This document shows positions 4,018 to 9,605 of a stretch of DNA of 64,000 bases, piece after piece; the stretch's first letter is position 1, and each line of letters begins with the position of its first letter. The stretch lies in assembly GCA_002457675.1 (NCBI GenBank), contig NTKK01000002.1, forward strand, positions 124,001 to 188,000. The letters run 5' to 3'. The position numbers were made by a program, and so were the translations under genes. The notes beneath the pieces are model-generated. The model made no database searches. It was not told the origin of the DNA and worked only from the letters and a program-made list of their open reading frames with translations. Source of the stretch: Bacteroidetes bacterium MED-G17 (GTDB lineage: Bacteria > Bacteroidota > Bacteroidia > NS11-12g > UBA9320).

Positions 4018-4349
4018 TTAACATTGCTAAAGTACAATTCCTTTTTATTTCATGAATTACACATACTGTTATTGTATATAATATTAAATAATGTATATAA
4101 TAATATATAAGCTGTGTGGATTGTGGAATCTTTTTTGTTTAAACATGCGCAGAGTAACGTTTTGCCTATTTCTTCACATTTATATAAAATATAATTAATT
4201 GATATTTAGTTATATAAGTTTTATTATTTAAATTGTTAGTGTGGTTATTAACATAGAGTTGGTCATATCTTAATGTTACCCTAAGATTATTTTTTTGTGT
4301 ATAAAAGGTCTAAATTTTAATGGCGTTTAAGATTTATAATTTTTTCGGT
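4018..4349. other. very AT-rich intergenic region with DnaA-box-like motifs
   Basis: This is 332 bases without a gene, about 22% G+C by direct count. It includes a nearly pure A/T stretch at about 4071-4110. Motifs resembling DnaA boxes are TTCTTCACA (4170-4178, one mismatch to TTATNCACA) and two weaker TGTGG-containing ones near 4115 and 4230. A perfect TTATGCACA sits just outside at 4363-4371, in the end of the lipoprotein gene. The pheS promoter must be at the left end. Apart from that I see no RNA gene or riboswitch fold. Confidence 0.4.
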
Positions 4350-5762
4350 TTACGGTTTGGATTTATGCACATCTAAATCCTCTTCACTAATAGAGATTTT
4401 AATTTCCCAGTTTTCTGGAATTTTTATTGGTTTTTTATAGTAAAAGAAGCCTTCCTGATGTATTTGTTCTTGGTTTTTATAAACGCTGAGTTTTTGGTTA
4501 GCATCGGTATCTTCAACTATTGTTAAAGTATAAGTTCCGCTTTTTATTCTAATTGATTTATTATGTGTTATTTGCTTTATTAAATTTACTTGTTTTATTA
4601 TAGAGTTTTCCATAAAAAATAGTGAAATTGGAAAATTGATGCTTTTGGGTAATACTAAGTCAAGTAGGCTATAGTTGGTATCAATTTTAGGAAGTTTATA
4701 TGTTCTGCTTGGATATAATGTAGAATCATTACCAATTATGGTGTCAAAGGTTATGGTACGCAAATATGGATTGGTGTTAACAATGGCTGTTGTATTGTCT
4801 GTGTAGTTTATATGAATGTCCGGTTGACAAATTAGAAATAGTGAGTCTTTGATTATACTGGCTTCTATTTGCTCAGACCGAAGGTTGGGGTGTACTAGGA
4901 ACAGTGTGTCATTTTTTATAAAATTTAGTATTCTTGAATTACCTCTCTTATTTAAGAGGCTGTCTTTTTTTGTGATGCTTATTCGGTGGTTGGAGTAACC
5001 TAAGGTATCAATGAATTTTGTAATAATTACTGTGTCCTGAATTTTATAGAACCCGAGCTTATCGTTTAAGTAATAATTGGGTAGAAGGTTGGGTGTCTTG
5101 GTAATGTAGGCGTAATTGGTTTGAAGATGTTTTTTATATAAATAGATCTTGTTGCTTAACATGCTGTTGGTGAAAAGCTTATAGCTGGAATCTTTAATGA
5201 TTGAATCAGTCGTATAGGTTGGTAGCTCATTGGTGTTAAGAAACTGAATTGTTCCCTTGGGCAGCATCGATATGTTGAAAATAGAATCGCGTATAGGAAA
5301 TCTGTATAGGTGGTTGTTGATTGTGCATACGAACGAATCGATGGGCTTAAGTAATTGGGTGATTGGGTGGATGATTTGGAAATTCAATGCTATGCTGTCC
5401 TTTGATCTACGACTGATGTGAATATCTAAGGTATCATTTATGTTGTTTTCGGTTATGTCTTTAATGACACCGTTTGCAACTATTTGATAGTTGCCTAGGA
5501 TTGGTTCGGTCCTTATAATTAATGTTTTGGATTTTAATCGGATTTTGTCCGTTTTCGTTGTGGGCAAGAAGAAAAGTTTGCTTTGGTTGGCTAAATCTAT
5601 TTTCTCGTCGAAACGGAGATGATGGAGCCATGTTTGGCTGCTGTCTTTAATTTGGTAGGAAATTAATTTGGGTGCTGCATTATCTTTTGGACCTCCGTTT
5701 GGGGGTTTAACACTTGCGCATGCGGACAGAATTAAAAAGCCAATTGCGTAAATTTTCTTCAT
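4350..5762 (-). CDS. Ig-like domain lipoprotein of Bacteroidota type
   Basis: A 470-residue lipoprotein: lipobox LSAC near residue 14, then the PPNGGPKD segment that begins a widespread Bacteroidota family annotated as Ig-like (SbsA/Big_5-like) domain proteins. An N-terminal Ig-like domain of about 100 residues is followed by a long beta-rich part with no motif I can name. It overlaps mnmG by four bases (ATGA) and is the last gene of that operon. The role is unknown; location should be the outer or inner membrane, facing the periplasm. Confidence 0.75.
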   Translation of the reverse strand: MKKIYAIGFLILSACASVKPPNGGPKDNAAPKLISYQIKDSSQTWLHHLRFDEKIDLANQSKLFFLPTTKTDKIRLKSKTLIIRTEPILGNYQIVANGVIKDITENNINDTLDIHISRRSKDSIALNFQIIHPITQLLKPIDSFVCTINNHLYRFPIRDSIFNISMLPKGTIQFLNTNELPTYTTDSIIKDSSYKLFTNSMLSNKIYLYKKHLQTNYAYITKTPNLLPNYYLNDKLGFYKIQDTVIITKFIDTLGYSNHRISITKKDSLLNKRGNSRILNFIKNDTLFLVHPNLRSEQIEASIIKDSLFLICQPDIHINYTDNTTAIVNTNPYLRTITFDTIIGNDSTLYPSRTYKLPKIDTNYSLLDLVLPKSINFPISLFFMENSIIKQVNLIKQITHNKSIRIKSGTYTLTIVEDTDANQKLSVYKNQEQIHQEGFFYYKKPIKIPENWEIKISISEEDLDVHKSKP

Positions 5763-7621
5763 CTTCCTAGGTAGATCAATAGTGTGCTTAAATCGGACTG
5801 TGATACACCGCTTATTTTTTGTGCCTCACCAAAGGTCTTTGGCTGTATGTCTGAAAGCTTTTGTTTTCCTTCCGTAGAAATTGACATAAAAGACTTATAG
5901 TCAATGTTTTGCGGTATATTTAGTTCCTTAAATTGTATAAATTTGTCGACAGTTTCAGCCTCCCTCCGCAGGTAGCCTTGATACTTTATCTGTGTTTCTA
6001 CTTTTTGTAAAATACTAGCGTCTAGATTTGAGAATGGAAACTCTTCTCGTTCAACATTGAATAAATCTTGGATATGTACTTGAGGTCTTGACAACAACTT
6101 GCTAAAAGAAAGTGCATGTTTGGGTGTAGCAAGTTTGTCGATCGGCTCAATTTTCTGCATTTCTGAAGGTTTTATGTGGTGAGAGGAAAAATATTGTATG
6201 GTCTTGGTGACCGTACTTTGATCGTTTGCCATTTGTTGAAAAGCGCTTTGCGTAATTAAACCAAGGTCATAACCCACGGGCATTAGACGTTCATCAGCAT
6301 TGTCTTGTCGGAGATGTAATCGATATTCTGCTCGAGAGGTAAACATTCGATATGGTTCATCCGTACCCTTAGTAATTAGGTCGTCGATAAGTACACCGAT
6401 GTAGGCCTGGTCTCGTCCTAATATAAGGCTTTCTGATTGTCGGATTTTATGGTGGGCATTTACTCCTGCCATTAGGCCTTGAGCTGCGGCTTCTTCGTAC
6501 CCTGTGGTTCCGTTGATTTGTCCTGCAAAGAAAAGACCTTCAACAAGTTTGGTTTCTAGGTTGTGCTTAAGTTGAGTTGGTGGAAAGTAGTCATATTCGA
6601 TGGCGTAACCTGGGCGTAAAATCTGCGCTTTTCGGAATGCGGGTATTTTAAGTAAAGCTTCTTGCTGAGTTTCTTTAGGTAGACTGCTGCTAAAGCCGTT
6701 TATGTACACTTCGTTGGTGTTCCATCCTTCTGGTTCAATAAACATTTGGTGCCTGTCTTTGTCAGCAAAGCGGTTGACTTTATCTTCTATGGACGGGCAA
6801 TATCTAGGTCCTATACCTTCAATGTTCCCATTAAATATAGCGGATTTTTCGAGATTTTCACGAATAACATTGTGGCTTTCATTGTTGGTATACGTTATGT
6901 AACAAGGTCGCTGAACACTCAATCTTTTTTGTCTTTGAAAGGAGAAGGATTTTGGGTTTTTGTCACCGTGTTGTATATCAGTTTGGGAAAAGTCAATGGT
7001 TGAACTTAAGATCCGTGGAGGTGTTCCTGTTTTCATTCGTGCAGAAGAAAACCCAAGTCGATGCAAGGATTCTGTAATCCCGATGCTCGGCCTTTCGCTC
7101 ATTCTTCCACCACCATACTGGTCCTTGCCAATATGAATGGATCCATTCAAAAAAGTACCGCTGGTAAGTACAACAGAGGATGAATAAAATGTATAGCCCA
7201 TCTGCGTACCTATATGAAATTGTTTCTTTTTTGTAATTGTGGTGGCCATGTCTTGAAAAAAGTGAAGATGTTCGAGCTCTTCTAATCTTTTTCGATAATT
7301 GGCGGAAAACTGGAAACGATCACACTGTGCCCTTGGGCTCCACATAGCTGGCCCCTTTTTTGTATTAAGCATTCTGAACTGTATTGTTGCGCTATCGGTT
7401 ACCTGGCCTGACAAACCACCAAGGGCATCGATTTCTCGAACAATTTGCCCTTTTGCAACACCACCCATAGCAGGATTGCAGCTCATTTTTGCGAGCGTCT
7501 CTAGATTCATGCTTATCAGCAATGTTCTTGAACCTAGTTTTGCCGCGGCTGCGGCCGCTTCACAGCCTGCGTGCCCGCCTCCTATTACGATAATGTCAAA
7601 TTTTGTTTCCACGTGGAACAC
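5759..7621 (-). CDS. mnmG: tRNA uridine-5-carboxymethylaminomethyl synthesis enzyme MnmG (GidA)
   Basis: MnmG uses FAD, methylene-THF and NADH, together with MnmE, to modify U34 in the wobble position of several tRNAs. The FAD Rossmann motif GGGHAGCEAAAAAAKLG is near residue 14, and PAMGGVAKGQIVREIDALGG and EDKVNRFADKDRHQMFIEPEG are classic family blocks. The C-terminal helical domain is complete and the length is 620 aa. The start is GTG at 7621 (MFHVETKFD); a second in-frame GTG at 7612 is possible. The start overlaps the end of ybeY by 37 bases and lies in a parS-like palindrome. mnmE is not in the window. Confidence 0.96.
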   Translation of the reverse strand: MFHVETKFDIIVIGGGHAGCEAAAAAAKLGSRTLLISMNLETLAKMSCNPAMGGVAKGQIVREIDALGGLSGQVTDSATIQFRMLNTKKGPAMWSPRAQCDRFQFSANYRKRLEELEHLHFFQDMATTITKKKQFHIGTQMGYTFYSSSVVLTSGTFLNGSIHIGKDQYGGGRMSERPSIGITESLHRLGFSSARMKTGTPPRILSSTIDFSQTDIQHGDKNPKSFSFQRQKRLSVQRPCYITYTNNESHNVIRENLEKSAIFNGNIEGIGPRYCPSIEDKVNRFADKDRHQMFIEPEGWNTNEVYINGFSSSLPKETQQEALLKIPAFRKAQILRPGYAIEYDYFPPTQLKHNLETKLVEGLFFAGQINGTTGYEEAAAQGLMAGVNAHHKIRQSESLILGRDQAYIGVLIDDLITKGTDEPYRMFTSRAEYRLHLRQDNADERLMPVGYDLGLITQSAFQQMANDQSTVTKTIQYFSSHHIKPSEMQKIEPIDKLATPKHALSFSKLLSRPQVHIQDLFNVEREEFPFSNLDASILQKVETQIKYQGYLRREAETVDKFIQFKELNIPQNIDYKSFMSISTEGKQKLSDIQPKTFGEAQKISGVSQSDLSTLLIYLGR

Positions 7622-7980
7622 GACAATAATTCATTTTCTAATAACCGCATCAAATTTTTTTGAGTAACGCTTCTGTCGTTAAATCCCTGAGTATGTAGTA
7701 GCGCATGAAATAGTATTCGGCGCATCTCAAGGGATTTATCGACACCAAGTTTTTTTGCGTTTTCTTGTACAAGCTCAGGGCATATCAATATGTGAACCTC
7801 CTTTGCGTTAGGCTGATCAAAGAAGCTTGTAATAACATCTGTATAATAATCATGATTCAGTAATTGTTTGTTTTGGAAGAGCATTTCACTTTTTGAAAGC
7901 AATCGAACAGTAACGTAAGTGTCCAAAAAATAGTCAGCTAGGATGCTTGCTAAACCGTGGTGTTCTATTTCATTGATCAT
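7585..7980 (-). CDS. ybeY: endoribonuclease YbeY (rRNA maturation factor)
   Basis: YbeY is a zinc-dependent RNase-like factor needed for 16S rRNA 3'-end maturation and 70S quality control. The metal site is HALLHTQGFND near residues 90-100. The canonical motif is HxxxHxxGxxH, and here the third His is Asp. I recall Asp at this place in other Bacteroidota YbeY proteins (HGVLHLCGYKD type), so the site is probably functional. At 131 aa the protein is short for the family. The ATG overlaps the upstream gene by four bases (7977-7980), and the 3' end runs 37 bases into mnmG. Confidence 0.88.
   Translation of the reverse strand: MINEIEHHGLASILADYFLDTYVTVRLLSKSEMLFQNKQLLNHDYYTDVITSFFDQPNAKEVHILICPELVQENAKKLGVDKSLEMRRILFHALLHTQGFNDRSVTQKNLMRLLENELLSCSTWKQNLTLS
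7604..7620. other. parS-like palindrome over the mnmG start codon
   Basis: The plus strand reads TGTTTCCACGTGGAACA. The core TTCCACGTGGAA is a perfect 12-bp palindrome. Read on the minus strand it is a perfect parS left half (TGTTCCAC) followed by the right half with one extra G. It covers the GTG start of mnmG and the end of ybeY. ParB binding is possible but less certain than for the site at 8360. Confidence 0.45.
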
Positions 7981-9605
7981 TTGATGATGTATAGTGCTTG
8001 GTGTTCGGTTTTTTTCTTGCCTACAGGATTAACTAAAAACAGGTACAAATGGTAAACGCCTGCTGGATATTCATGAGCGTAAAAGTTGGGCTCGCTTAGG
8101 GTAAAGTCACTGATTAGTTGTCCCCACCTGTTGTATACTTTTCCTCTACTTTTTACAAGGTCAATATTTGGACCATAGAAAACCAGTTTGTTGTTTTGGC
8201 TGTGTGCGTTTAAGCTATTTGGATAAAAGACCGTAAAAGGGGCAAGGTTACTTATCCGGTTGGAGTAGCTGGATAGGGTTCCATTGTTTTGTTTTACTCT
8301 GTAAAGTCGCGTGTTTGTTTCTATGAGGTTTTTTGTGTTTTCGTTCAAAACAAGCATATTGTTCCACGTGAAACCTTCTTGAAATTGCAGATAGCTTTGT
8401 TCAATGCTTTGCCACCCAACATAGTCATCCCATTTTAATTGTTGCCCGTCGACGGTAAGTAAAATGTTTTGGTGTATTTTGGAAATACCAGTTAATTCAT
8501 CGCAATTGTTGTAGCTGACCAGTTGAAATAAATTTTTTCTCAAGCCAATATTCTCATCTATAAAATACAAGACAGAATCTGTGTAGATATTTTCTCCAGT
8601 AGCAACTGCTTGACTATTGATGTTGAGTTTCCAATAAGCATCATGTTGAAGTGTTAATTTGCCCAATTCAATAAGTACAGAATCATTGCTTACGGTGCTG
8701 ACGCGCAGTATTAGGGGTTTTTGAGGCTTGCGTAGATTTTTGGTTTCTAACTGTATAATGTTTGAACTTGAGCTTATCAGCGCGGATGGTTTATAAGACC
8801 TTAGGCGTGCACGAATGGTTTTTCCCCTAGGAAAGTTTTCAAGCAATAGCGAGTTTTGCTGACCATCCAAGACTTGGTAAGTATAAAAGATGCCGTTACC
8901 TGTGTCCAAAAGAATGTTTTGCTTGCCAATAGGCCAGCCCTCATACAAACTCCATGACAACTGAATATTTTCTTCGCACCCTTTAACGATGCCATTAAGC
9001 TTGGTCGCTTTATGAGGTGTGCTGATCGGCGCAAAAAGCTTGCAACTGTCATAAGGTGCCAAGCCTATGTAGGCATAAAGATTGCGTTTCAAAAGAGCAA
9101 AGGTGCTTAGTGTATTGAATATAGAGTCATTAATTCCCCCTGTATTCTTATACAGCCGATAACCCCATGCATCAGCATCTTTGCTTTTTTGCCAACCTAC
9201 CATCAACTGGTTCTGAGGGCTAATACTTACTGAATCAATTCCCATTAAAGAAGGCCTTAATAAGTCCATCTTGATGGTGTCAGAATAAAAAGATAGATCC
9301 CCCGAGCAATCAGATGAAGTTTTTATAAAAAATGACCAGCTTGGGTCAAAGTCGGAAATTTTGAAAGTGTAAGCTTCAACGCCAAACAAAAAGATCTCAC
9401 CATAAACAGCATAAGGATTATTGAGCTTTCTGCCGAAAATTTCATGTTTTGTTAAGCTTCCACAATCGTCAGGACTACTTTTCCATGAGAGACTAACTGT
9501 AGAATCAGAGGTGTTCAGGCAAACATTAAGCAGATTAACGGGCTTGTTTACGCCAAACATCTGATAAGCAGAGAATAATAAACTTATAAAAACAAGTTGT
9601 TTCAA
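7977..9605 (-). CDS. exported protein with type IX secretion type B sorting domain
   Basis: A 542-residue protein: N-terminal signal peptide (VFISLLFSAYQMFG), a middle made of beta-sandwich repeats that look fibronectin-type-III-like (a SLSWKSSPD segment early on), and a C-terminal CHU_C/gliding-motility-associated domain. That domain has the typical FTVFYPNSLNAHSQNNK, YNRWGQLI and AGVYHLYLF pattern, so the protein should be exported by the type IX system and attached to the cell surface. Start is TTG at 9605, immediately preceded by an in-frame TAA, so no longer reading is possible. It is the first gene of the operon with ybeY, mnmG and the Ig-like lipoprotein. The ligand or role is unknown. 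Confidence 0.85.
   Translation of the reverse strand: MKQLVFISLLFSAYQMFGVNKPVNLLNVCLNTSDSTVSLSWKSSPDDCGSLTKHEIFGRKLNNPYAVYGEIFLFGVEAYTFKISDFDPSWSFFIKTSSDCSGDLSFYSDTIKMDLLRPSLMGIDSVSISPQNQLMVGWQKSKDADAWGYRLYKNTGGINDSIFNTLSTFALLKRNLYAYIGLAPYDSCKLFAPISTPHKATKLNGIVKGCEENIQLSWSLYEGWPIGKQNILLDTGNGIFYTYQVLDGQQNSLLLENFPRGKTIRARLRSYKPSALISSSSNIIQLETKNLRKPQKPLILRVSTVSNDSVLIELGKLTLQHDAYWKLNINSQAVATGENIYTDSVLYFIDENIGLRKNLFQLVSYNNCDELTGISKIHQNILLTVDGQQLKWDDYVGWQSIEQSYLQFQEGFTWNNMLVLNENTKNLIETNTRLYRVKQNNGTLSSYSNRISNLAPFTVFYPNSLNAHSQNNKLVFYGPNIDLVKSRGKVYNRWGQLISDFTLSEPNFYAHEYPAGVYHLYLFLVNPVGKKKTEHQALYIIK
8360..8375. other. near-perfect parS (ParB-binding) site inside a coding region
   Basis: TGTTCCACGTGAAACC matches the B. 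subtilis parS site TGTTCCACGTGAAACA at 15 of 16 positions, and the general consensus TGTTNCACGTGAAACA at all but the last base. It is embedded in the 7977..9605 gene, where it codes for GFTWNN on the minus strand. The parS-like palindrome at 7604-7620 lies 740 bases away. Chromosomal parS sites usually cluster near the replication origin. Confidence 0.75.

Follow-up and report, generated by a model that had tools for sequence, protein, structure and literature searches.

The locus described here raises the question of whether a parS-like palindrome situated in the middle of a protein-coding gene is a genuine chromosomal partition site, a by-product of the encoded protein or a coincidence. The palindrome lies in a stretch of 64 000 nucleotides (the window; G000:C10:124001-188000) from a 1.67 Mb assembly that consists of 17 contigs and is 99% complete. 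A sequence-only reading had described it as a near-perfect parS site in an operon shared with mnmG and had proposed that, if ParB binds there, the window is close to the chromosome origin and a coding region is doing double duty.

A parS-like palindrome in the ybeY–mnmG operon

At 8360–8375 the sequence TGTTCCACGTGAAACC (site B) matches the B. subtilis parS site TGTTNCACGTGAAACA at 15 of 16 positions, with only the last base deviating. This confirms the position and degree of match claimed earlier, and it is the palindrome expected of the parS class. In the 542-codon open reading frame at 7977–9605 (minus strand) the site is read as GGT TTC ACG TGG AAC A(AT), corresponding to G-F-T-W-N-N. A second copy, overlooked in the earlier reading, is located 755 bp away at the start of mnmG (site A). 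It is degenerate, with two mismatches to the palindromic consensus (Table 1), and A and B are the only parS-like sites found in this genome.

Taken by itself, site B could be a near-parS 16-mer that arose by chance in a 1.67 Mb genome and has no function. A search of the complete assembly returns a single place with at most two mismatches, which is site B, against three matches for the reversed control pattern. Within the window seven matches with at most three mismatches are present, a number that is reached in six of 100 shuffles. The motif count in the own genome is thus at chance level, and the single site is not significant on its own and cannot separate parS from chance.

Table 1. Features of the parS-bearing region (positions in the window).
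Feature	Position	Strand	Description
Putative parS site A, degenerate	7605..7620	-	TGTTCCACGTGGAAAC on the mnmG strand, two mismatches to TGTTYCACGTGRAACA; on the mnmG start codon, inside the 3' end of ybeY
Putative parS site B	8360..8375	+	TGTTCCACGTGAAACC; GGTTTCACGTGGAACA on the strand of the host gene; inside a probable T9SS gene
Host gene of site B, probable type IX-secreted protein	7977..9605	-	542-codon ORF, VYNRWG-type C-terminus; homologues upstream of ybeY in relatives
ybeY (rRNA maturation RNase)	7585..7980	-	PF02130, TIGR00043
mnmG (gidA)	5759..7621	-	PF01134
ORF for a probable lipoprotein, flanked by mnmG and the AT-rich gap	4350..5762	-	N-terminal homologues at the equivalent place in relatives
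Candidate oriC: AT-rich gap next to pheS	4018..4349		AT content among the highest in the contig; skew in G013; synteny

The host gene of site B, ybeY, mnmG and the ORF at 4350–5762 overlap or abut on one strand in an operon-like arrangement, in agreement with the operon proposed earlier. The label "type IX-secreted" holds up in part. The VYNRWG motif is present at the C-terminus of the host protein, and one relative matches TIGR04131 (T9SS type B sorting domain) with E=4e-4, under the curated cut-off; no Pfam or NCBIfam model matched the host protein of the window itself. The T9SS assignment of this gene is given as probable.

Conservation of both sites in relatives

The parS motif is common among 97 relatives and the control is rare, and many of the first loci examined led to ybeY–mnmG. 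We therefore rely on a set of 72 ybeY–mnmG loci, 71 of which were located through the MnmG protein alone, with no selection on the motif, the remaining one being the window. Site A (at most two mismatches) is found at the ybeY/mnmG junction in 68 of these 72 loci. In 60 of them, covering 17 genera, the gene that precedes ybeY carries site B, about 750–960 bp before mnmG; 12 have no recognisable site B. Genomes in which mnmG was located hold 68 sites with at most one mismatch; 49 of these are no more than 4 kb from the start of mnmG, against an expectation of 0.23.

Clustering of the kind expected for chromosomal parS, as opposed to an even spread of matches, is thus present in relatives around mnmG, while the search of the own genome gave the chance-level result described above. 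Place, frame and codons are conserved over 17 genera (see below for the latter two), and for the family the conserved position refutes a chance origin. That site B is a functionless coincidence is in our view vanishingly unlikely.

A few relatives show variant sites. In genus g14 (L073, L079, L080, L083, L094, L102, L103 and L129) CCCGTG or CTCGTG replaces CACGTG at site B, and core variants occur at site A as well in several loci, suggesting a shared shift in the core sequence that is tolerated. Near-parS sites are also seen about 3.3–3.6 kb after the mnmG start in G051, G081 and G064. The sequence TGTTTCAGGTGAAACA, conserved in one genus (g10), was considered as a parS variant and set aside, the CACGTG core being absent. 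It occurs in about seven genomes, and in L019 and L022 it is located between integrase-like and aldose-epimerase-like genes.

Codons are fixed at site B and the phase varies at site A

Where it is recognised, site B is in the same reading frame at every locus except one (L070) and reads x-(S/F)-(T/P/S)-W-N. The second codon is TCC wherever it encodes Ser and TTC wherever it encodes Phe, and the third is ACG for Thr, CCG for Pro and TCG for Ser without exception. The fifth codon is AAC, with AAA in four loci. In the remainder of the same genes ACG accounts for 12% of Thr codons, TCC for 12% of Ser, TTC for 25% of Phe and AAC for 44% of Asn. With one genome per genus, the product of the codon probabilities is about 1e-36, a value that is somewhat inflated because only motif-recognised loci are counted.

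These observations bear directly on the possibility that the protein is what is conserved, with the x-S/F-T-W-N peptide of the host gene and the F-H-V-E/K peptide at the start of MnmG being needed for their own sake. Trp and mostly Asn are indeed conserved at site B, and in two genomes that have lost site B a GS(T/A)WN peptide is kept in other codons, with a parS near -552 instead. Protein constraint nevertheless explains neither site. The control motifs NRWG and xSN of the site-B genes are written in mixed codons, in contrast to the fixed synonymous codons at the motif, and the amino acids at site B interchange (Ser with Phe; Thr with Pro and Ser) while the DNA remains near parS. Site A falls evenly into all three phases relative to the mnmG frame (26, 21 and 21 of 68 loci). 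At both sites these patterns point to selection on DNA rather than on protein, and we consider protein constraint highly improbable as the source of either. Codon fixation at site B likewise backs the suggestion that a coding region is doing double duty.

Position relative to the replication origin

In G013, a near-complete relative that is nearly one contig, the sampled GC skew flips sign near 2.1 Mb and near 0.95 Mb. The fine skew minimum at 2,107,904 is 3.7 kb from parS (2,104,181) and adjoins the stretch with the highest AT content in the 200 kb analysed. In G056, where mnmG is at 402 kb, the switch in sign falls between the 410–430 kb and 500–520 kb samples. The contig of the window itself shows a weaker, shallow local minimum at window position ~620, within about 8 kb of parS in an assembly of 17 contigs. 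The skew in G013 and in the window contig therefore supports the claim that this region is near the chromosome origin, as would be expected for a chromosomal parS site. The use of mnmG as an origin-near gene is borne out by its own position near the skew origin; in G013 dnaA (1.257 Mb), at a distance of about 0.85 Mb, and parB (0.747 Mb) are both far from the skew minimum.

Most relatives that were examined also have the gap between the ORF at 4350–5762 and pheS, and its equivalent in G013 adjoins the skew minimum. DnaA boxes are not enriched in the gap at 4018–4349 and do not mark it, so its designation as a candidate oriC rests on skew, AT content and synteny.

ParB, Noc and condensins

The genome encodes ParA and ParB from adjacent genes and has a single ParB; in its relatives, too, 38 of 39 genomes have one ParB_N protein each. 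Aligned to Caulobacter ParB, the protein has R173, Y179, K184 and G201. According to Jalal et al. (2020; PMC7383237), ParB orthologues share R173 and G201 and vary at positions 179 and 184, and the corresponding residues of Noc are Q173 and R201. A ParA together with a ParB that carries the parS-reading pair R173 and G201 is what a chromosomal parS site calls for.

Alternatively, the mnmG operon could be regulated through the palindrome, which would then serve as operator for a transcription factor or for a Noc-like paralogue of ParB. The sites do belong to a single operon, one inside a gene and one at a gene start, and ParB scores 240 bits against the Noc model TIGR04285, under the cut-off of 315. 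Against regulation, the sequence is that of the parS consensus, the sites are at the skew origin, site B is in the middle of its gene and additional copies are found at several positions near mnmG. The sole ParB_N protein moreover carries R173/G201 and not the Q173/R201 of Noc. An operator is thus very unlikely. The Noc-binding sites (NBS) of Firmicutes resemble the sites described here in being a related palindrome read by a ParB paralogue; they differ in that the ParB of the window lacks Q173 and R201 and in that our sites are clustered at the origin. Assignment as a Noc-binding site was rejected: the residues are R, Y, K and G where Noc would have Q173, K179, K184 and R201, and no second ParB-like protein was found.

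No SMC protein scores above the cut-off in the 39 genomes of the order (the own genome and 38 relatives) and no ScpB does so in 20 of them; both were found in control genomes. A role as an SMC-loading parS site, at which ParB recruits Smc–ScpAB, was therefore set aside. The absence of canonical SMC and ScpB in the order fits a report on two gut Bacteroidetes without known condensins, in which the origin is marked by parS clusters and not by dnaA (PMC10197239). We raise tentatively the rather doubtful possibility that ParB–parS acts with ParA alone here or loads an unrecognised condensin. The two sites might then form an operon-embedded centromere without canonical SMC–ScpAB, site B in its fast-evolving host gene being kept at a nearly constant distance from mnmG (about 750–960 bp) since the pair acts as a unit.

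Distribution in Bacteroidota and comparison with known systems

A strict pattern combining the parS core with the mnmG start is present in at least 127 of 396 Bacteroidota genomes, belonging to 41 of 172 genera, and its reversed control in none. This is a lower bound, as sites further from the mnmG start are missed by the pattern. Among named genomes, parS around mnmG is seen in Flavobacterium, Chryseobacterium, Maribacter, Aequorivita, Roseivirga and others. Since these loci were retrieved in part with a peptide pattern (MFHVETKF) overlapping site A, they serve as illustration only, and the counts rest on the MnmG-located loci.

The mnmG-flanking parS of other Bacteroidota resembles that of the window in having site A at the 5' end of mnmG and usually a further parS within about 2 kb. 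In most cases this additional copy directly follows mnmG on its 3' side (about +1880), whereas in the order of the window it is upstream of ybeY and in-gene. A recognisable homologue of the site-B gene was found at none of 80 named-genome loci, and the in-gene copy upstream of ybeY is seen only in the order of the window. Some Flavobacterium loci hold more copies. In L296 (Flavobacterium sp. MC2016-06) a parS-like site with the core CACATG, in most copies TGTTCCACATGGAACA, occurs five times at about -657 to -189 from mnmG, at intervals of 116–118 bp between ybeY and mnmG. In L277 and L285 six or seven parS lie in the ybeY–mnmG gap.

The Spo0J/Soj system of B. subtilis and the ParABS system of Caulobacter share with the window the 16 bp palindrome TGTTNCACGTGAAACA near the origin, and the genome of the window has adjacent ParA and a parS-type ParB. 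In contrast to these systems, parAB is away from the sites, the two sites are in the ybeY–mnmG operon, dnaA is far from the origin in G013 and no canonical SMC–ScpB was found in the order. Novelty is limited, because parS inside coding sequence is already known from B. subtilis. In a limited literature search, which does not by itself prove novelty, we found no description of the association of mnmG with parS in Bacteroidota. The element is of a known kind in a conserved setting that we have not found described.

Proposed function and significance

The identity of site B as a chromosomal parS site, its proximity to the origin and its double duty are all supported by the sequence comparisons, and none of the findings that the earlier reading named as refuting was obtained. 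We infer that, very probably, a ParABS system for chromosome partition has two parS sites close to the origin here, one of them at 8360–8375, and that ParB would bind there, spread and direct segregation. In such a system the single chromosomal ParB would bind site A at the start of mnmG and site B in the probable T9SS gene upstream, both about 3–4 kb from the candidate replication origin, and would spread across the operon. ParA would then separate the duplicated origin regions. With site B sitting in a gene under selection for ParB binding, the synonymous codons of the x-S/F-T/P/S-W-N segment would be frozen while the remaining protein diverges.

For much of Bacteroidota, the parS at mnmG provides a sequence marker by which the replication origin can be located; dnaA can be a misleading guide there, as in G013. 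This bears on growth-rate estimates that are based on the origin and on the orientation of metagenome assemblies. Site B also offers a clean case of a DNA signal that fixes codons within a gene that otherwise diverges, for which naturally occurring losses and relocations serve as controls. Finally, given the apparent absence of canonical SMC–ScpB, the partner of ParB–parS in Bacteroidota becomes a directly testable question.
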